Positions 667-20,533 of a stretch of 22,860 bases of DNA are shown piece after piece. The translations under genes and the position numbers were made by a program. This DNA comes from a virus. Every line of letters starts with the position of its first letter. The stretch's first letter is position 1. Location: positions 1 to 22,860 of IMG/VR virus record IMGVR_UViG_3300013372_001220; one strand, written 5' to 3'. The notes under the pieces were generated by a model, which worked only from the letters and a program-made list of their open reading frames with translations, was not told where the DNA came from and did no database searches.

Positions 667-824
667 CAGAAATGACCCTACAGCAAATCAACAAGGCAAT
701 CCGAGAAGCCAAAAAAGAGCGCGCTGCAATTGTTGCGGCACAAGCCGCATATCTAAAAGCCGTTAAAGATACGCGCAAGGCAGTAGACCTAGCAATGGAA
801 AAGGCACGAAAGGCGAACCAATGA
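663..824 (+). CDS. Small coiled-coil protein, 53 aa, unknown function
   Basis: A 53-codon frame starts at an ATG that overlaps the previous TGA by 4 bases, and its own TGA overlaps the next ATG (821) in the same way. It is therefore translationally coupled on both sides, which supports it as a real gene despite its size. The product is almost entirely Ala/Lys/Glu/Arg-rich and should form one amphipathic helix or coiled coil (for example KAIREAKKERAAIVAA near residues 11-26). It has no membrane segment and no cysteine. Because it sits between a head morphogenesis gene and the modular head proteins, a small virion-associated or chaperone role is possible, but I do not recognise a family. Confidence 0.65.
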   Translation: MTEMTLQQINKAIREAKKERAAIVAAQAAYLKAVKDTRKAVDLAMEKARKANQ

Positions 825-2164
825 AAATTGAAGATAAAGCGTATTTTGCAATGGAACCTAATTTGCAAGGAATGAAAAAGGTTAGGGATGAAATATATCG
901 TTTGGCGCAAATACATTTAGAGTTGTCAGAAAAATCAACTGATAGCCAAAAGAAATATAGAGGATCTGCAATTGCACAAGCGTTGTCGTCTTTTGTAAAC
1001 CGCGCGCCCTATGCCGCTGAAATCGGTATGGAATCTAAAGGATCTGCATATTGGTACAAGAAAGCGGTGCAACTAGCAAAAGAGGGCGCAGCGTATGGCG
1101 TTATTGCTGACAAACTAATTGCAGAAGCGTTATCCATTTACAACAGCCATTCCAAGCCCGTCGAGGACAAAGCGTATTTTGACCGGCGAATTTATCATTC
1201 AACAGGAACATTTCAAACTAAACTAGATAAAGAAACGCGCGTGCCTATTGATGGAACATCTAAGTTTGTAACAGTCGATCCGGCGCAATACATAACGCCA
1301 AGGCGCGTTCGCATTTCGGGCATCAAAGGCGAAATTGAAATTGCGGCTCAACTAAGCGGCGATGAAATAAAAGGGATATCCGCTAAATCTGTAAAGGCAA
1401 CGGCCGCCCGCCAAGGCTCTAAGGCTAAGTTTGCCAATTTTAAAGTTGGTCAAATTGTTAAATACAAGAATCCAAATTTGGATGAAGATCCAAATCAAAA
1501 GTACATTATTAAAGAAGTTAATGGCGACCGTGGATTTATGGAAACGCACGGCGGATATTTTAAAGATGCAACTTTTCCGCCACGGATGCTATATCAACAA
1601 AATGAAATTATGCTTGCTTCCCGCGCAGGAATCAAATCTAGGTTTGCAACAGATACTGATTACGCGCACAAAAACACCATTAAAATAAAAGGCAAGTCAG
1701 ATAAGATTTACGCCTTGATTTATGCAGAAGAAGGCTATGGGGATAATTTAACAGGAATTTGGAATGGTCATGTTCAAAACAACACCAACCCAAAAGTAAA
1801 TGACATAGTGACTATTGGACAATTTAAAACAAAAGAGGCTGCAAAGGCTGCCGCAATAAAAGCGTTAAAACAAGAAGAGCAAAACGCAAATTTTAGCAAA
1901 TCCAAGTTTGCCAACCGTGGCGCGTTTGCAGAAGCGTCATCGTCGCCGGTGCTTGGAAGCCTGTTAGAAAAAAAGGTAATGCCTGAAGGCGGTTGGCGCG
2001 CTGTAGAAACCGATGGCGGCGCGTTGGTAATTGCCTTTGAGGATGGCGACATTGCGGGCAACTTTGCTAGGAGAGCGGCAGAAAATGGTTATAGTGCAAC
2101 TGCGCCAATGGCTATGGCGGGACGATTTTGGAATGTAAAGGTACAAAATGAAAACAAAAACTAA
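821..2164 (+). CDS. Modular protein 1 (447 aa), putative polyprotein of internal head proteins
   Basis: The protein has a 10-residue tag ending EDKAYFA, then five modules of about 70-110 residues. K-A/S-x-F-A/D motifs occur at residues 6-10, 117-121, 201-205, 272-276 and 360-364. Module 1 (11-116) is helical and reappears in the next gene. Module 2 (122-205) is unassigned. Module 3 (206-270) begins NFKVGQIVKYKNP and looks like a small SH3-like domain that I recall as a stand-alone phage or plasmid protein. Module 4 (277-359) is an alpha/beta domain with a Lys/Ala-rich helical end. Module 5 (365-447) carries a GGWRAVETDGGALVIAFEDGD stretch. There are no cysteines, signal peptide or membrane segments. 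The start overlaps the previous stop (ATGA). The neighbours are an F-like head protein and the prohead protease, so packaging in the capsid with cleavage at the motifs is my inference. Adaptor or tether proteins with conserved linkers are the alternative. Confidence 0.7.
   Translation: MKIEDKAYFAMEPNLQGMKKVRDEIYRLAQIHLELSEKSTDSQKKYRGSAIAQALSSFVNRAPYAAEIGMESKGSAYWYKKAVQLAKEGAAYGVIADKLIAEALSIYNSHSKPVEDKAYFDRRIYHSTGTFQTKLDKETRVPIDGTSKFVTVDPAQYITPRRVRISGIKGEIEIAAQLSGDEIKGISAKSVKATAARQGSKAKFANFKVGQIVKYKNPNLDEDPNQKYIIKEVNGDRGFMETHGGYFKDATFPPRMLYQQNEIMLASRAGIKSRFATDTDYAHKNTIKIKGKSDKIYALIYAEEGYGDNLTGIWNGHVQNNTNPKVNDIVTIGQFKTKEAAKAAAIKALKQEEQNANFSKSKFANRGAFAEASSSPVLGSLLEKKVMPEGGWRAVETDGGALVIAFEDGDIAGNFARRAAENGYSATAPMAMAGRFWNVKVQNENKN
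851..1153 (+). repeat. Duplicated module, copy A (101 codons)
   Basis: This 303-base stretch aligns without gaps to 2772-3074. By hand alignment about 83 of 101 encoded residues are identical; the main difference is a six-residue patch (KYRGSA here, QNYEYR in copy B). Similarity stops at the flanks, where this copy is bordered by EDKAYF-type linkers. Confidence 0.9.
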
Positions 2165-3761
2165 TTTTGCAACAACATCGGATGTCCGCAATTTGATTAA
2201 CGCAGTTATGGAATCCTTTCCAAAGGGGCCGGTGCGTGACGGCATCCAAACAAAAATGTTTAATTATTGGGACAACTTAAACGCCGGAAACAACTTGCCC
2301 GAAGGATCTGACCGCAAACGGTTTCATGCCGAAGCCCTCGACAACTATAAAGCAGCAATTCGCATGGCAATAACTTTAGGAAGTAAAAGGGACAGTAGTT
2401 ACGAATTTAAAGTTACCGAATTGGAACGAAAGTTGTCAAAAATCAAAGTAGGCAAAAACGAAATGGCAAAGGTTGAAGATAAGTTTTATGGCAAGCGCGT
2501 TGTGAAGGGAATCTTTGCGAAGGCGAAGTTTGACAAATCAAATTATTACGCTCTTGAAGGAACGGTAGATGGAATGGCCGCAGGTTCAAAAACTGTAGAT
2601 AACATTGAAGAAGCAATGTATTACGGAAACGCAATGCTTGCACACATGAAAAAGCAAAGCCCAAAAGCCAAGGTAACAACGGTTCATATTTACAAAGTTG
2701 TAAATTATGAGCGTGAAAATAAGCCTGTAAAAGTTCTTAATTCCCGCACCGGCTTAAAGGCAAAGTTTGCAATGCAACCTAATTTGCAAGGTATGAAAAA
2801 GGTTAGGGACGAAATATATGCTCTAGCGCAAACGCATTTAAGGCTGTCAGAAAAATCAACTGATAGCCAAAAACAAAATTACGAATATCGCATTGCAACG
2901 GGTTTATCGTCTTTTGTAAGTCGCGCGCCCTATGGTGCTGAAATTGGAATGGAATTTAAAGGATCTGCATATTGGAACAAGAAAGCAATGCAACTTGCAA
3001 ATGAAGGCGCGGCTTATGGCGTTATTGCTGACAAACTAATTGCAGAAGCGTTATCTATTTACAACAGTCATTCCCGCACCGGATCTAAGGCAAAGTTTGC
3101 CAACGGCGGCACAAAGACCGCTGCATTCTTGGCTAAAATTGACAGTAAAAGCAAAGCAATGATCCTTGAAAACATTGCTAAGAATTATGGAATTAGCGCA
3201 CAAGCCGCGCTTGCTGAAATAACAGATAGCGAATCAGAAAACTTGCTTGACTACATGACAGAGCCGGCGCGTAGTGCGGCATCAGTTTTGATGCAGAAGT
3301 ACGGATCATTTTCCCGCAACGGCTTTAAGGCAAGGTTTGCAAAGGAATACATTTTGTGGGCTGTGCCAAAAGGCAAAACGGACACAATGTATTCACAACC
3401 TATAGCGGAACAACTCTACACGGATGCACAAATAAACGAAGTAAAACGCAAAGCAACCGCTGCCGGTTGGCATACTTTTAGAATTGCTGAAATGATGAGT
3501 TTTGAAGATATGACAAACGCTTTTAAGGGCAAGCCCGTTAAAAAACGAAGTTCCCGCACGGGCGTAAAGGCGAGGTTTGCATTCAATTTAAATAAAAAAG
3601 TAACCTATCTAAATTCAGACAATTATCCGCAAAGTTACAAAATCACCGATGCTTTGTTTGCAAAATTAAATTTGCGGGATGGCAACAGTAGAAAATATTT
3701 GGAAGCCGCATTAAAAACAGGCGAGGCGGTAAAAATTTCACGCGTAGAGGCTATTTCATAA
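2148..3761 (+). CDS. Modular protein 2 (537 aa), putative polyprotein of internal head proteins
   Basis: The protein opens with a short tag (MKTKTNFA) and then has six modules. They are separated by KAKFD (125-129) and by four near-identical linkers of the form SRTGxKAKFA at 199-208, 309-318, 389-398 and 469-478. Module 1 (9-124) is helical. Module 2 (130-198) is an alpha/beta domain with many Tyr and Lys residues. Module 3 (209-309) is the paralogue of module 1 of the preceding protein. Module 4 (319-388) is helical. Module 5 (399-468) begins KEYILWAVPKGKTD and resembles a small stand-alone protein family I have seen in phages and plasmids. Module 6 (479-537) is a short basic domain. The start overlaps the preceding gene by 17 bases with an AAAGG Shine-Dalgarno, and the stop overlaps the protease start (TAATG). 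The linkers look like processing or tag sites; a non-cleaved modular structural protein remains possible. Confidence 0.7.
   Translation: MKTKTNFATTSDVRNLINAVMESFPKGPVRDGIQTKMFNYWDNLNAGNNLPEGSDRKRFHAEALDNYKAAIRMAITLGSKRDSSYEFKVTELERKLSKIKVGKNEMAKVEDKFYGKRVVKGIFAKAKFDKSNYYALEGTVDGMAAGSKTVDNIEEAMYYGNAMLAHMKKQSPKAKVTTVHIYKVVNYERENKPVKVLNSRTGLKAKFAMQPNLQGMKKVRDEIYALAQTHLRLSEKSTDSQKQNYEYRIATGLSSFVSRAPYGAEIGMEFKGSAYWNKKAMQLANEGAAYGVIADKLIAEALSIYNSHSRTGSKAKFANGGTKTAAFLAKIDSKSKAMILENIAKNYGISAQAALAEITDSESENLLDYMTEPARSAASVLMQKYGSFSRNGFKARFAKEYILWAVPKGKTDTMYSQPIAEQLYTDAQINEVKRKATAAGWHTFRIAEMMSFEDMTNAFKGKPVKKRSSRTGVKARFAFNLNKKVTYLNSDNYPQSYKITDALFAKLNLRDGNSRKYLEAALKTGEAVKISRVEAIS
2742..2771 (+). repeat. 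Linker repeat 1 (SRTGLKAKFA)
   Basis: A 30-base in-frame direct repeat encoding SRTGLKAKFA, with near-identical bases to the copies at 3072, 3312 and 3552 (pattern TCCCGCACCGGC, then AAGGCAAAGTTTGC). It joins the second module to the duplicated module. Confidence 0.9.
2772..3074 (+). repeat. Duplicated module, copy B (101 codons)
   Basis: This is the second copy of the module at 851-1153, in the same orientation, 1921 bases downstream and inside the next gene. It is bordered on both sides by SRTGxKAKFA linkers instead of the EDKAYF linkers that flank copy A. Confidence 0.9.
3072..3101 (+). repeat. Linker repeat 2 (SRTGSKAKFA)
   Basis: In-frame 30-base repeat; it follows the duplicated module and precedes the fourth module. 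It matches linker 1 at the nucleotide level apart from the variable fifth codon and a few silent sites. Confidence 0.9.
3312..3341 (+). repeat. Linker repeat 3 (SRNGFKARFA)
   Basis: In-frame 30-base repeat with Asn for Thr and Arg for Lys. It immediately precedes the module beginning KEYILW. Confidence 0.88.
3552..3581 (+). repeat. Linker repeat 4 (SRTGVKARFA)
   Basis: In-frame 30-base repeat that precedes the last module of the 537-aa protein. Degenerate relatives in the preceding gene lie at 1406-1435 (ARQGSKAKFA), 1619-1648 (SRAGIKSRFA) and 1895-1912 (SKSKFA). Confidence 0.88.
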
Positions 3762-5011
3762 TGGCCGCATCCCACCAAACGGAAACTACGCCTGACGGCA
3801 AGGTTCGCATTAAGGACTTAGAATTGTTCATGGGCTACGATCCCTCGATTGATGCCGAGGATGACGATGCTATGCAGGAATACGATTCCAAGAAGGTAAA
3901 AGACATTGTTAGCCGCACCAACAAGTTTATTGCGCGCGGCAGCCGCCCCAAACTTGTAATTGAGCATGAAAAAGATGGCAAGCCTAGCAACCCAAAGGCA
4001 GTTGGCGACATTGAAAAAGTGTGGCTTGAAGAACGCAACGGCGTTTCCTATGTCATTGGCGATGTAATTATGCCCAAGGAATCATTTAAGGCATACTTGG
4101 CAACCAACGCTTTCCCGCGTCGATCCGCTGAAATTTGGAAAGACAATCATTTGAGCGAAGTGGCTTTGTTGGGACGGGACACCCCGCGCCGCCCATTGCC
4201 GGACACTTCATTTACAAAACTTGGCGATAAGATTATTTTTGAAAGAAAATTGTCCGCGTTGGACATGACACTTGACTTGAAATCAAAATTTGACGAAATT
4301 GGCGTAGGTGGTGGTTCAAACACCTTCGTCCCATCGTCAGGAATTACAAAGGAAACAAAAATGGCTAAGAAGAAGCGAATGGATGCTGAAGAAGAATTGA
4401 AGCAAAATGCCGCTATGGAATGCGCTGTTGACCCTGACGAGGATGAAGAAAACTTTGAGGGCGACGACCTCGAAACTATGGAAGCCGATGCTGAAGCAAT
4501 GGGCGCGGACGACATGGAAGATGAAATGGCCGAAGATGAAGATATGGAAGTTATGGCTGAAGATGACGACGAGGAAGTAAACGCTTACGGCGGAAAGAAG
4601 AAAATGAAGCAGCCAATGTTTAGCAAGGGCAGCCGATCCGAAAAGGCTTTGTTTGCACAAGTGCAGGCTTTGACCGAAGCAAATAAGGCAATGGAGCGTC
4701 AATTGCGCCTAGAGCGATTTGGCAAGGAAATTGACAACATGGTGCGTGACGGTTTCCGTTGCTCCAAGTTCCGCAACCAAATGGTTGAGGAGTTGGCAGA
4801 CAGCGAAGCCCCACAAGCAAAGGTTTCTTTTTGGAAAGCGACAATGGCGCGCGATCTGACAGGTATGCCAATGTTGGCTCAAATGACTGTGCAAAACGAT
4901 AGTCCAAATATGGGTGATCGTGAAGCAAGCGACCGCGCTGTTCGTGAAGCAGCCGGCGATATGACGAAATTTAAACAACTGTTCAGCAAGTACACAGGCA
5001 AACAAGCCTAA
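3761..5011 (+). CDS. Mu I-like prohead protease fused to scaffold (416 aa)
   Basis: The N-terminal part (about 1-175) looks like the Mu gpI-type serine protease. His69 lies in LVIEHEKDGKP, followed by the typical AVGDIEKVW and beta-rich region. Ser122 lies in FPRRSAEIW, followed by LSEVALLGRDTPRR. His69 and Ser122 are my catalytic candidates. Residues 174-200 are a linker with KSKFD and then GVGGGSNTFVP. Residues 201-416 are scaffold-like: a basic start, a long Asp/Glu/Met-rich stretch (about 204-275), a Lys patch, a KALFA motif (295-299) and a coiled-coil C-terminus. In Mu, protease I and scaffold Z have the same nested arrangement. The start codon overlaps the preceding stop (TAATG). The enzyme should act inside the procapsid, removing scaffold and maturing head proteins; its likely substrates are discussed in the findings. 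Confidence 0.82.
   Translation: MAASHQTETTPDGKVRIKDLELFMGYDPSIDAEDDDAMQEYDSKKVKDIVSRTNKFIARGSRPKLVIEHEKDGKPSNPKAVGDIEKVWLEERNGVSYVIGDVIMPKESFKAYLATNAFPRRSAEIWKDNHLSEVALLGRDTPRRPLPDTSFTKLGDKIIFERKLSALDMTLDLKSKFDEIGVGGGSNTFVPSSGITKETKMAKKKRMDAEEELKQNAAMECAVDPDEDEENFEGDDLETMEADAEAMGADDMEDEMAEDEDMEVMAEDDDEEVNAYGGKKKMKQPMFSKGSRSEKALFAQVQALTEANKAMERQLRLERFGKEIDNMVRDGFRCSKFRNQMVEELADSEAPQAKVSFWKATMARDLTGMPMLAQMTVQNDSPNMGDREASDRAVREAAGDMTKFKQLFSKYTGKQA
4361..5011 (+). CDS. Nested scaffold protein from internal start (216 aa)
   Basis: Codon 201 of the protease gene is an ATG preceded by AAAGGAAA at a normal Shine-Dalgarno distance (4348-4355). The same style of ribosome site precedes the decoration gene (5030) and the capsid gene (5485). 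Translation from here gives a separate scaffold without the protease domain: MAKKKRMDAEEEL, then a very acidic segment, a Lys-rich patch, and a helical C-terminus ending in a basic tail. Nested scaffolds are known for Mu (Z within I) and lambda (Nu3 within C). Scaffold would be needed in large excess over protease, which an internal strong start would provide. The start is inferred from sequence only. Confidence 0.65.
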   Translation: MAKKKRMDAEEELKQNAAMECAVDPDEDEENFEGDDLETMEADAEAMGADDMEDEMAEDEDMEVMAEDDDEEVNAYGGKKKMKQPMFSKGSRSEKALFAQVQALTEANKAMERQLRLERFGKEIDNMVRDGFRCSKFRNQMVEELADSEAPQAKVSFWKATMARDLTGMPMLAQMTVQNDSPNMGDREASDRAVREAAGDMTKFKQLFSKYTGKQA

Positions 5012-5029
5012 TTTTAAAGGAAAAATACA

Positions 5030-5458
5030 ATGGGATCGTATTCAAGCACACCGGCACTACAGGCAACAGGCACAATTCTTCCCTACACTTTTGTGGGCAT
5101 TGGAAGCGGCGACAACACGGGCGCGGCGGCAACTGCTGCTACAACCCCTGTTCTTGGCGTTTCCGATGGTTCAACATTGCAATTTGATAGCGCAAATCAC
5201 GCAACCACAGGCTTGCCGATTACGCTCCAAGGCGGCGATGTTGTTCTAATCGCTGTTACGGCTTCAACCGCCATTGCGGTTGGAGATCGCTTGCAGGCTT
5301 CAACAAGCGGCTACGCAATTAAAGCAGTTGTTACCGCAGGCCCCGCTTTGCGTTGGCAAGGCTTGGTTGCGCTCGAAGCAGTTTCGTCACAAGCGTCAAA
5401 TGTTGTTATTCGTGCATACAAAAATGGTGGAATGGTTTACTACCCAACCACACTTTAA
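5030..5458 (+). CDS. Head decoration / capsid cement-like protein (142 aa)
   Basis: A 142-residue, Ala/Thr/Gly/Val-rich, beta-strand-rich protein without cysteines. The pattern resembles phage capsid cement proteins: an early TGTILPYTFVGIG strand, a GGDVVLIAV segment near residue 65, an AIAVGDRLQASTSGYAI segment near 82-96, and a C-terminal VVIRAYKNGG strand. Such proteins bind the outside of the expanded capsid and stabilise it. Length (about 110-150 aa) and position directly before the major capsid gene fit. The Shine-Dalgarno AAAGGAAA lies 7-10 bases before the ATG. The assignment rests on pattern and context, not on a database match. Confidence 0.65.
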   Translation: MGSYSSTPALQATGTILPYTFVGIGSGDNTGAAATAATTPVLGVSDGSTLQFDSANHATTGLPITLQGGDVVLIAVTASTAIAVGDRLQASTSGYAIKAVVTAGPALRWQGLVALEAVSSQASNVVIRAYKNGGMVYYPTTL

Positions 5459-5484
5459 AACAAACTTACAAAGGAGTATGAAAA

Positions 5485-6513
5485 ATGGCTGAAGTAGGCG
5501 TTGGTGGTGGACTTAATACATTTGTTCCCACTTTTAGTCCGGCAACCGGACAATTGCAAATTGAATTTACGCGTTCCGTAAACCAATTTCCAATTACTCG
5601 TTATGCCCAAATTGTTCCTGTAACCGCTATGAAGGGTTACTACCTCAAGATTGACGAAGAGGAAACTGCCCGATTGGTCAATGTTCAAGATGCCCAATGG
5701 CCGCTTGGCGAGGATCGACCAACCGGAATCAACAGCGATTTTGAATTTGTTGCATACACAACGCAACGCTTCCAAAACTCGTTTAGCATTCCGCAAGAAA
5801 CCGCGCGGCAATCCGCTTGGGACATTGTTGCGAGCCATGCTCGTATTCAAGCCGCCAAGATGATGACGCACCGATCTTCCCGCGCTGCAACAACTTTGAC
5901 TACTTCCGGCAATTATCCAAGCAATGCTTATGTTGCTAGTTCAACAGCGGCTATTGGTGCAGCCATTACAACAACTGATGGCGTACAAAAGTTAATTCGC
6001 TACGCAATGGAACAAATTGTTCAAAACACCGTTGGCGTTGTAACTCCAAAGGACATCATTATGGTGATGAATCCATCAGCCGCGCGCATTATTGCGTCAA
6101 CTGACGGCGTTCGTGACTATGTGAAGAACACACCAATGGCTTTCAGCGCGTTGACGGGCGATGCAACATTCGCAACTTACGGCTTGCCACAAACCTTGTT
6201 TGGTTTGGGCGGCGTGGTTGTTGATGACACCGTTAAGGTAACGACCCGCAAGGGTGCGGCTTCGCCTTCCCGTGGATTCTTCTACGGCACAGCGGCAGCC
6301 CCATCGGTTGTCTTTGTGAGTAGGCCGGGCGGTTTAATCGGCAACGAAGGCCCTTCGTTCTCAAGTTTGACCGTGTTCGCATACGAGGACATGACAGTTG
6401 AAACTTTGGAAGATCCTTGGAATCGCCGTATTAAGGGTTCAGTTGTTGACAATTCCGCAATTGAATTGACCGCGCCACTTTCAGCATTCTACTGTTTAGA
6501 CATTCTTTCCTAA
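5485..6513 (+). CDS. Major capsid protein, HK97 fold likely (342 aa)
   Basis: Size and position after protease/scaffold and decoration genes identify the major head subunit. The N-terminus reads MAEVGVGGGLNTFVP, shared with the linker of the protease protein. There is an early strand region (FTRSVNQFPITRYAQIVPV), a long helix near residues 108-135 containing QSAWDIVASHARIQAAKMM, and a C-terminal beta region with TVETLEDPWNRR followed by the last strands. There is no long delta domain, which agrees with a separate scaffold. AAGGAG lies just upstream of the ATG, one of the best ribosome sites in the window, as expected for the most abundant virion protein. A terminator-like hairpin follows the gene. 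Confidence 0.8.
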   Translation: MAEVGVGGGLNTFVPTFSPATGQLQIEFTRSVNQFPITRYAQIVPVTAMKGYYLKIDEEETARLVNVQDAQWPLGEDRPTGINSDFEFVAYTTQRFQNSFSIPQETARQSAWDIVASHARIQAAKMMTHRSSRAATTLTTSGNYPSNAYVASSTAAIGAAITTTDGVQKLIRYAMEQIVQNTVGVVTPKDIIMVMNPSAARIIASTDGVRDYVKNTPMAFSALTGDATFATYGLPQTLFGLGGVVVDDTVKVTTRKGAASPSRGFFYGTAAAPSVVFVSRPGGLIGNEGPSFSSLTVFAYEDMTVETLEDPWNRRIKGSVVDNSAIELTAPLSAFYCLDILS

Positions 6514-6546
6514 GCAACTCAAAGTTTGCATTCAAAGGGTTGCTTA
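6511..6546 (+). promoter_or_regulatory. Competing hairpin overlapping the capsid stop codon
   Basis: TAAGCAAC (6511-6518), which includes the capsid stop codon, is the exact reverse complement of GTTGCTTA (6539-6546). Pairing here would use up the left arm of the terminator stem at 6534-6543, so the two structures exclude each other. The first arm would also be covered by a ribosome that is terminating on the capsid gene. Confidence 0.45.
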
Positions 6547-6570
6547 GTTTAATCGCTAGGCAACCCTTTT
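6534..6570 (+). terminator. Rho-independent terminator-like hairpin after capsid gene
   Basis: AAAGGGTTGC (6534-6543) pairs perfectly with GCAACCCTTT (6560-6569). The stem can extend inward by five more pairs, two of them wobble, leaving the loop TTAATC, and is followed by TCTTT. It would end or reduce transcription after the major capsid gene. Upstream bases can form a competing hairpin (6511-6546). Confidence 0.7.
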
Positions 6571-6586
6571 CTTTGGAAGGCTATTT

Positions 6587-7072
6587 ATGAATCAACTTTT
6601 GACTAACACCCGCTTGGCTCTCTATGTTGATGAGCGTATTTTAAAAGAACTTGCCACCGATGATAATACGGACGGCACAATTTCTAGTTCAACTACGATT
6701 ACGGCGGCTATCTTGCGCGCCGGTGAAGAAGTTGCTTCTGCGGCTACTCGTTCAAATACCTATTCCACGGTTGACCTAGATACCTTAGCGGCTGCCAACA
6801 ACGGAATGCTTGAAGGCTTGGTTGCGGATTTAGCCTTATGCTTCCTGTTTGAGCGCAGGGGCGGCGATGTTCCCGAAGTCGTTAAGGCTAAGGCTTCTCG
6901 CGCGCAAGCGTCCCTAAGCGATCTGCGGGACGGTAAACGAGTGTTTGCAAACGACACTAACAGAGCCGCCGGACTGCCTAGCGTGGCTGTAATAGCAGTC
7001 CAAGCGCGCGGAAACCTTGGAATGGTTTCTGATTCCGCATTCTTTCCATTTCGTAAGGATAGATTGTCCTAA
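6587..7072 (+). CDS. DUF1320 / Mu gp36-like head-tail connector (161 aa)
   Basis: The protein is mostly helical: an N-terminal NTRLALYVDERILKELATDD stretch, TITAAILRAGEEVASA near residue 40, and a long helical segment with GLVADLALCFLFERRGG. This matches my memory of the DUF1320/gp36 family, which sits after the major capsid gene in Mu-like head modules and forms part of the head-tail connection. The single cysteine lies in the LCFLFERR helix. The start has GGAAGG six bases upstream. The stop codon overlaps the next start (TAATG). Other adaptor families (HK97 gp6-like) have similar helical composition, so the exact family is less certain than the role. Confidence 0.6.
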   Translation: MNQLLTNTRLALYVDERILKELATDDNTDGTISSSTTITAAILRAGEEVASAATRSNTYSTVDLDTLAAANNGMLEGLVADLALCFLFERRGGDVPEVVKAKASRAQASLSDLRDGKRVFANDTNRAAGLPSVAVIAVQARGNLGMVSDSAFFPFRKDRLS

Positions 7073-19749: not shown

Positions 19750-20138
19750 TTAAAGTTCCTCTTAAAATCCGCCCATGTTGCATCAAATTTTGTCCACGGT
19801 GCGCCTGCGCGCGCTTCGAGAGCCGCCCGAATCAATCGGTTTTTCATTTCCGATTTGCTCGCAGGCAGTTCAGGGAACAAGGTTTCCGGCTGCGATGCTA
19901 CCCAAACTATAGCGTTGCGCCCCGTGCGCGTTGGCGCGCGCTTGCCGGAATCACGGATGGCTTCCAATTTCTTTAAAGCGGTGAATGCCGGTGAGCAACT
20001 TTGATGCGTCAATTGCAATATGTGCATTGCTTGATCGCAAGTACAGCCGCCAACGCGGTCTATTAGGTCACGCACCCGCGCTTGAATGCGTGAAGTATCC
20101 ACGGAATCAAACGCTTCCTTTGATGTTGTTTGGATCAT
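19746..20138 (-). CDS. Winged-helix-like DNA-binding protein (130 aa)
   Basis: I use the ATG at 20138 because it overlaps the endolysin stop (ATGA), as at every other junction in this operon; a longer reading starts at 20168. The N-terminus reads SKEAFDSVDTSRIQARVRDL, then GGCTCDQAMHILQLTHQSCS, then TALKKLEAIRDSGKRAPTRT and GRNAIVWVA. That is helix, helix-turn-helix and beta-wing in the order of a winged-helix domain. It resembles a small phage HTH family with a conserved HQ-x-x-SA-x-x-x-xL and SGR-A-VW pattern. The C-terminal 50 residues are helical and basic. It may regulate phage genes or control lysis timing. The assignment is from pattern memory. Confidence 0.55.
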   Translation of the reverse strand: MIQTTSKEAFDSVDTSRIQARVRDLIDRVGGCTCDQAMHILQLTHQSCSPAFTALKKLEAIRDSGKRAPTRTGRNAIVWVASQPETLFPELPASKSEMKNRLIRAALEARAGAPWTKFDATWADFKRNFK

Positions 20139-20533
20139 TGGGCAAGCACCTTTTGAATTTTTAACCAATACTTTAGCGTTGCCGGCTTTAAGTAACCACG
20201 CGGCCCGCCGTTATGAATCCTTGCAAGCATCTCCAAAGTAACAGTTTTGCCCTTGGGTGCATAGCGGGCTAGGTATGCCCGCACTACATATTCCGCATAC
20301 TTGGGATCTTTGCAGTCTTGATAGCACCCGCTTATTTTTGAATCTTGCCAATAGCATTCCCAAATCTGAAACGCTCCAAGGGCTTTACCTTGATCGCCTA
20401 CTGCGTTGGGGTTGCCACCGGATTCCACTTGTTTTATGGCAGCAAGCAAGCGCACCATGTCAGATTCCGGCACTTGTGCAAACGCGCTTGTTGCCGCCGT
20501 AAAGGATAAAACCAAAGTTATTAAGTGTTTCAT
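20135..20533 (-). CDS. Secreted lysozyme / transglycosylase-like endolysin (132 aa)
   Basis: Residues 1-19 form a Sec-type signal peptide (MKH, then a hydrophobic stretch LITLVLSFTAATS, and AFA before the likely cleavage site). The mature part has the small lysozyme / SLT pattern. It has a QVESGG motif with the likely catalytic Glu37, GKALGAFQIW at 49-58 (the G-x-x-Q box), CYWQDSK with nearby Cys residues 60, 70 and 74 that could form disulfides, and RIHNGGPRGY at 105-114. Family members cleave peptidoglycan glycan strands. A secreted endolysin can reach the cell wall through Sec without a classical holin; no obvious holin gene is visible nearby. Start and stop overlap both neighbours by 4 bases, so it is one unit of a coupled operon. 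Confidence 0.78.
   Translation of the reverse strand: MKHLITLVLSFTAATSAFAQVPESDMVRLLAAIKQVESGGNPNAVGDQGKALGAFQIWECYWQDSKISGCYQDCKDPKYAEYVVRAYLARYAPKGKTVTLEMLARIHNGGPRGYLKPATLKYWLKIQKVLAQ

Follow-up and report, generated by a model that had tools for sequence, protein, structure and literature searches.

The window, by which we mean the whole stretch of DNA analysed here (22,860 nucleotides; IMG/VR virus record IMGVR_UViG_3300013372_001220, positions 1 to 22,860), carries a head-gene region with the following genes and features:

821-3761, + strand: two genes (447 and 537 aa) that are strings of small modules
3761..5011, + strand: prohead protease-scaffold fusion, 416 aa, tentatively assigned from a structure-model match and the invariant His69 and Ser122
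4280..4297, + strand: candidate self-cleavage site K-S-K-F↓D-E, protease residues 174-179, which resembles the module-joining sites of the two upstream genes (the arrow marks the presumed cut)
4301..4333, + strand: GVGGGSNTFVP, protease residues 181-191, putative mimic of the capsid N-terminus, identified by its match to the capsid protein and its conservation
4348..4355, + strand: internal Shine-Dalgarno-like sequence AAAGGAAA, 5 nt before an in-frame ATG (4361)
4361..5011, + strand: predicted scaffold-only product, 216 aa, beginning MAKKKRMDAEEE, from the putative internal start
5030..5458, + strand: 142-aa head protein between the protease and capsid genes, matching PHROG 673 (annotated head scaffolding protein) at E 3e-10
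5485..6513, + strand: major capsid protein, HK97 fold, 342 aa, assigned from VIA-align and PHROG 1005
5485..5529, + strand: capsid N-terminal segment MAEVGVGGGLNTFVP, with the GVGGGLNTFVP copy at 5497-5529

The protease-scaffold gene and its neighbours

The 416-aa protein has a predicted protease fold at about residues 4-163 and a scaffold-like C-terminus at about residues 290-416. The top structural match of the protease model is T4 gp21 (Z 7.8, rmsd 3.6, 116 aligned, residues 4-139); herpesvirus assemblins match it at Z of about 4-5.4, and Foldseek paired it with T4 gp21 at E 0.22. These comparisons of a predicted model are suggestive of a gp21/assemblin-like fold for the first 140 residues. 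The putative catalytic residues H69 (in IEHE) and S122 (in RRSAEI) are invariant in our family alignments A5 and A7. The window protein gave no significant match to Pfam or PHROG protease families, and two members of its family matched a PHROG head maturation protease weakly (E 0.024).

The hallmark of a nested scaffold, an internal in-frame start with a ribosome-binding site between the protease and scaffold parts, is present in this gene. In 122/131 unique relatives the equivalent Met is preceded, at a distance of 4 to 11 nt, by a Shine-Dalgarno core, as against 28% of other internal Met codons, and the amino acids encoded by this site vary among the relatives (KGK, KRK, KKE, KET, TKD) while a purine-rich AAGG-type sequence persists. 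Because the Shine-Dalgarno sequence and ATG are conserved through differing amino acids, the sequences indicate that a scaffold-only product is likely to be made from the internal start. The internal ATG lies 10 codons downstream of the capsid-like segment, and the scaffold-only product would therefore lack that segment, which would be a feature of the full-length protease product.

Structural modelling places the capsid protein in the HK97 fold, with VIA-align matches to 3bjq (Z 20.8, rmsd 4.4, 280 aligned, residues 19-342) and to HK97 Prohead II (Z 15.3, rmsd 4.0, 234 aligned), and 17/25 relatives matched the PHROG 1005 major head protein (best E 7e-7). Since the 3bjq alignment covers residues 19-342, the shared segment falls within the N-terminal stretch just before the aligned part. 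AlphaFold left both copies unplaced, with pLDDT of about 32-41 for the capsid N-terminus and in the 30s for the protease linker, and sequence searches of solved structures with three family alignments (A1, A2 and A6) returned chance-level matches only. The 142-aa gene is kept in relatives, in most of which a profile search found it, and its position suggests that the product is possibly a decoration protein. Gene neighbours include Mu F-like and Gp36-like proteins. Elsewhere in the window, 20135-20533 on the - strand encodes a protein of about 131 aa that is likely a lysozyme (Destabilase, E 1e-8; SLT transglycosylase, E 3e-6).

A near-copy of the capsid N-terminus at the protease-scaffold junction

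The capsid protein begins with MAEVGVGGGLNTFVP (residues 1-15), and a near-copy of this sequence sits where the protease and scaffold halves of the fusion protein join, within the linker peptide DEIGVGGGSNTFVP. GVGGGSNTFVP in the protease (residues 181-191) and GVGGGLNTFVP in the capsid protein (residues 5-15) are identical at 10/11 positions; in 150 shuffles the best 11-mer averaged 5.5 identities and reached at most 8. The best ungapped BLOSUM62 segment between the two proteins scored 63, as against 31.6 +/- 4.0 and a maximum of 53 in the same number of shuffles. The motif GVGGGxNTFVP, which an earlier note on this DNA had described as common to the protease linker and the capsid N-terminus, is thus real; the protease residue numbers given there, 177-192, were one too high, the correct ones being 176-191 (K176-F177-D178-E-I-G-V-G-G-G-S-N-T-F-V-P191).

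The two copies also agree in register. F177 of the protease aligns with Met1 of the capsid protein and D178 with capsid residue 2, where the mature protein would start if Met is lost, and the similarity of the two segments extends back to capsid residues 2-3. Phe stands exactly 14 residues before the invariant Pro of the protease copy in 73% of genomes, and the capsid Met1 stands 14 residues before its own Pro in 91%.

The motif pair is kept in four clades

Scans of IMG/VR gave 45 relatives at first and then more distant sets, adding up to about 330 protease relatives; we examined the best 80 of each scan, and these yielded 132 unique genomes with both genes. These fall into four clades by protease-domain identity, with consensus segments as follows:

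Clade A (that of the window), 41 genomes: protease FDEIGVGGGLNTFIP, capsid MAEVGIGGGLNTFVP
Clade B (L156 type), 8 genomes: protease TFSEVAPGGSNTFVP, capsid MAEVAPGGGNTFVP
Clade C (L201 type), 18 genomes: protease CFEAAPGVGNVFVP, capsid MADANIGGGLNTFVP
Clade D (L321 type), 64 genomes: protease FDMGTVGGGLSTFVP, capsid MAFTVVGGGLSTYIP

The motif is present in both proteins in 131/132 of these genomes and in all four clades, at identities that fall to about 50% for the capsid protein and about 33% for the protease; the sole genome without the pair (L045) has a frameshifted protease gene. Clade C was first met through a capsid pattern that contained part of the motif, and its retrieval was biased to that extent. 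The protease patterns that retrieved clade D and most of clade A lacked the motif, so neither copy was selected for in most clade-D loci. Across the 131 genomes the conserved residues are G, N or S, F or Y, V or I, and P, and two residues of the motif, a Gly and the final Pro, are fully invariant. In the protease alignment of clades A-C (A5), no residue between K157 and L315 is invariant other than G183, N187, F189 and P191.

Searching GenBank phages by tblastn with six queries (two window proteins and four relatives) gave no match at E 0.01, and the group is therefore without named relatives in that collection. One relative (L167, OMJK01000020.1) sits in a contig of a Nitrospiraceae bacterium assembly, which hints at Nitrospiraceae as a possible host.

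Specificity, codon usage and co-variation

We searched all open frames of at least 50 codons in the window and 20 further long records (869,540 residues) for a degenerate version of the motif. All 42 of its 42 matches fell in the protease or the capsid protein, with a single match to each in every genome, and no third protein with the motif was found in these 21 records. A weaker echo, noticed earlier in the 795-aa tail protein, does occur in the window (VVVGGGLETFGG from residue 111, including GGGLETF); it is absent in 6/6 alignable relatives of that protein, and we attribute this would-be third copy to chance.

Codons at the matched residues are identical in 33% of cases, as against the 36% expected from codon usage. 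Because codons match no more often than chance, the motif appears to be kept by selection at the protein level. We rejected a recent duplication or gene conversion, for which codon identity is not above expectation and there is no DNA repeat at the site; a repeat search of 3700-6600 found other pairs only and none linking the two copies.

When changes were counted on a tree of the protease domain and the capsid core, the two copies co-varied at one or two positions but not at others. The N/S position shows one change in the protease and two in the capsid protein on this tree, including a joint change from N to S on the branch to 60 clade-D genomes (at a node of low support, 0.42), and its state is concordant in 130/131 genomes. 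Phe became Tyr seven times in the protease copy, and 21/23 such genomes also have Tyr in the capsid copy. The V/I, T and x positions change mostly independently in the two copies, with almost no joint events. Lengths and flanks differ by clade: a residue between the glycines and N is missing from both proteins in clade B but from the protease alone in clade C; in the latter (L201) the protease reads PGVGNVFVP while the capsid protein retains GGGLNTFVP, and in clade A the capsid residues before GGG vary with the protease unchanged. A within-clade permutation of motif pairs gave p 0.0005 but ignores shared ancestry, which may explain its signal, and we therefore set it aside in favour of the tree count. 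The expectation that the copies would co-vary across relatives is hence borne out by the single joint N to S event and by Tyr, and not by V/I, T or x. The free change of one copy beside a constant partner, which had been named as evidence against a link, is seen in the flanks and at conservative positions and not in the core.

Upstream modules and a presumed cut after F177

The two genes before the protease are built from modules whose joins follow the pattern S[RKC][PTS]G....[RKTM][FM]↓, in the window S-R-[PT]-G-x-x-[KR]-F. Compared across relatives (461 site pairs), a given module is found behind different partners, with the junction falling directly after F or M, and in clade A modules have been shuffled among positions and between the two genes. 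P1' of these sites is mostly A, D or G, and Val in 1/169. The pattern suggests that the module joins are a processing site, and the two genes have the look of polyproteins, with exchangeable units of head-internal or ejected cargo that the prohead protease would process.

KSKF↓D just before the capsid-like segment and its counterparts in relatives (KEKF↓D, PARF↓A, KAKF↓G) resemble these sites, whereas GGGLNTF↓VP does not. Phe precedes the segment in 123/131 unique genomes when one-residue shifts are counted, the exceptions being Asn in three (L091 type), His in four (L307/L314 type) and Thr in one (L209). L091, L093 and L103 have Asn in place of the presumed-cut Phe (KVRN↓AETGVGGGSNTFVP), and their upstream module-joining sites keep F. 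A cut at Phe is thus not required, because the three Asn and four His genomes still keep the motif. The earlier suggestion that a cut at KSKFD would leave a scaffold fragment starting like the capsid protein therefore holds in part: the register, the frequency of Phe and the likeness to the upstream sites agree with it, but the internal start is probable, a scaffold-only product from it would lack the motif, and Phe is replaced in some genomes.

Discussion

Taken together, our analyses suggest that a single contact or a single cutting site probably serves both proteins in head assembly. We tentatively favour the former, with a probability of roughly 0.45 for the reading that the segment at the protease-scaffold junction mimics the capsid N-arm and docks the protease product in the procapsid. 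The observations on which we build are the joint conservation of the two segments, their exclusivity to two proteins, their register, the selection at the protein level and the signature of an internal start; from these we infer binding, a cut after F177, what the scaffold-only product does and release on maturation. Both peptides would bind the same place in the procapsid. That place could be a groove on the adjacent capsid subunit or, if N-arms contact one another homotypically, the arm of the partner. JBD30 likewise has an HK97-fold capsid, and its N-arms extend to the adjacent capsomer and hook onto one another at pseudo-twofold axes (PMC11445458). The full-length product alone would carry the mimic and so would anchor and space the protease in the shell, and the scaffold-only product, made without it, would not compete. 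A cut after F177 would release the protease domain, and the remaining fragment would begin like the mature capsid protein; on expansion the capsid protein's own arms would take over the sites. It is unlikely, in our view, that the self-cut instead serves to expose an arm that imitates the capsid protein and, during maturation, competes with the genuine N-arms or acts as their template. The weak co-variation within clades and the clade-C protease, which differs from its capsid version, count against a mimic, and so does the replacement of the junction Phe by Asn or His in seven unique genomes and by Thr in one.

The earlier note had proposed a shared assembly contact or an N-arm mimic. Conservation in four clades, confinement to two proteins and the common register speak for that proposal, beside which stands a shared cleavage site that it had not considered. 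The motif would then be the prohead protease's own substrate, for example with a cut after the aromatic residue in [NS]-x-[FY]↓[VI]-P, so that the enzyme would cut itself between its protease and scaffold parts and trim the first 7 to 14 residues from the capsid protein. We regard this as possible though somewhat doubtful. Self-cleavage and removal of the capsid N-terminus are the usual prohead protease cuts, the capsid segment lies outside the 3bjq-aligned part, the conserved core has a length of 8 to 9 residues, and a clade-level change in both substrates would track protease specificity. Known systems lend it weight too, as the capsid protein, protease and ejection proteins of SPN3US share the AXE cleavage motif (PMC7411985) and in 80alpha cleavage falls between F and A of the motif shared by the capsid and scaffold proteins (CP and SP) (PMC5744158). 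Against it, the presumed sites in the same genomes are of another kind (S[RKC][PTS]G....[RKTM][FM]↓[ADG]), with Val at P1' in a single case of 169, and one similar to them, KSKF↓D, is already found 12 residues upstream. Moreover, the similarity stretches for about 12 residues to one side of the putative cut but barely continues on the other, and neither of the two fully invariant residues would lie at P1 or P1'. We favour the mimic over a protease site because the shared stretch is long, reaching back to capsid residues 2-3 and with an invariant Gly and Pro near the ends of its core, and because the upstream module-joining sites differ from it in sequence.

We consider it quite improbable that a further partner (the portal, the 142-aa head protein or a chaperone of the host) recognises both peptides and coordinates folding or delivery. 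A common chaperone was suggested by the authors of the 80alpha study for the shared CP/SP N-terminal sequence (PMC5744158), and the 142-aa gene, lying between the protease and capsid genes, is conserved with both; it is a candidate partner only, and the two proteins that alone carry the motif have to come together in any case. Least credible, and already disfavoured, is the absence of any shared function, the likeness being left over from an old partial duplication or due to independent convergence on a Gly-rich linker. Gly-rich linkers are common, the tail protein has GGGLETF apparently by chance, and several motif positions vary independently within clades, but G, N/S, F/Y, V/I and P are kept in 131 genomes and include the sole invariant residues of a variable linker, and both the joint N to S change and the confinement of every genomic match to the two proteins speak against such an origin.

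The closest precedent is 80alpha, in which CP and SP share an N-terminal motif whose scaffold copy is essential for assembly even when uncleavable (PMC5744158). That motif is also shared with ribosomal protein L27 and is cut by the host protease Prp (PMC5744158). Both phages thus have capsid and scaffold proteins with a common short motif in or next to the N-terminus; in 80alpha it is at both N-termini and a host enzyme cuts it, whereas here the second copy lies within a fusion of protease and scaffold that the phage itself encodes, immediately ahead of the putative internal start. SPN3US resembles our phage in having one short sequence in both protease and capsid protein (PMC7411985), but AXE is 3 residues long and recurs in other cleaved head proteins, whereas the window motif spans 9 to 11 residues and occurs in two proteins only. 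The window gene is laid out like I/Z of Mu and C/Nu3 of lambda: these are prohead protease-scaffold genes with a nested scaffold, and they share with it a long protease and scaffold product, a shorter scaffold-only product (predicted here) and Mu-type gene neighbours. They differ in that the window protein has no significant Pfam or PHROG protease match, and we know of no N-arm copy in the Mu I/Z or lambda C/Nu3 proteins. Encapsulins dock a cargo enzyme inside an HK97-fold shell by a short linear targeting peptide, an analogy to the proposed mimic in the way it works and not in membership; to our knowledge, no such peptide copies the shell protein's own N-terminus.

How prohead proteases enter procapsids in the right number and find their substrates is only partly known. 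The peptide shared by protease and capsid protein marks a contact or a cutting site by sequence alone, one that point mutations can test, and it is not specific to the window phage, being kept across a large set of uncultivated phages. As a docking element it would offer a handle for addressing cargo to HK97-type shells.
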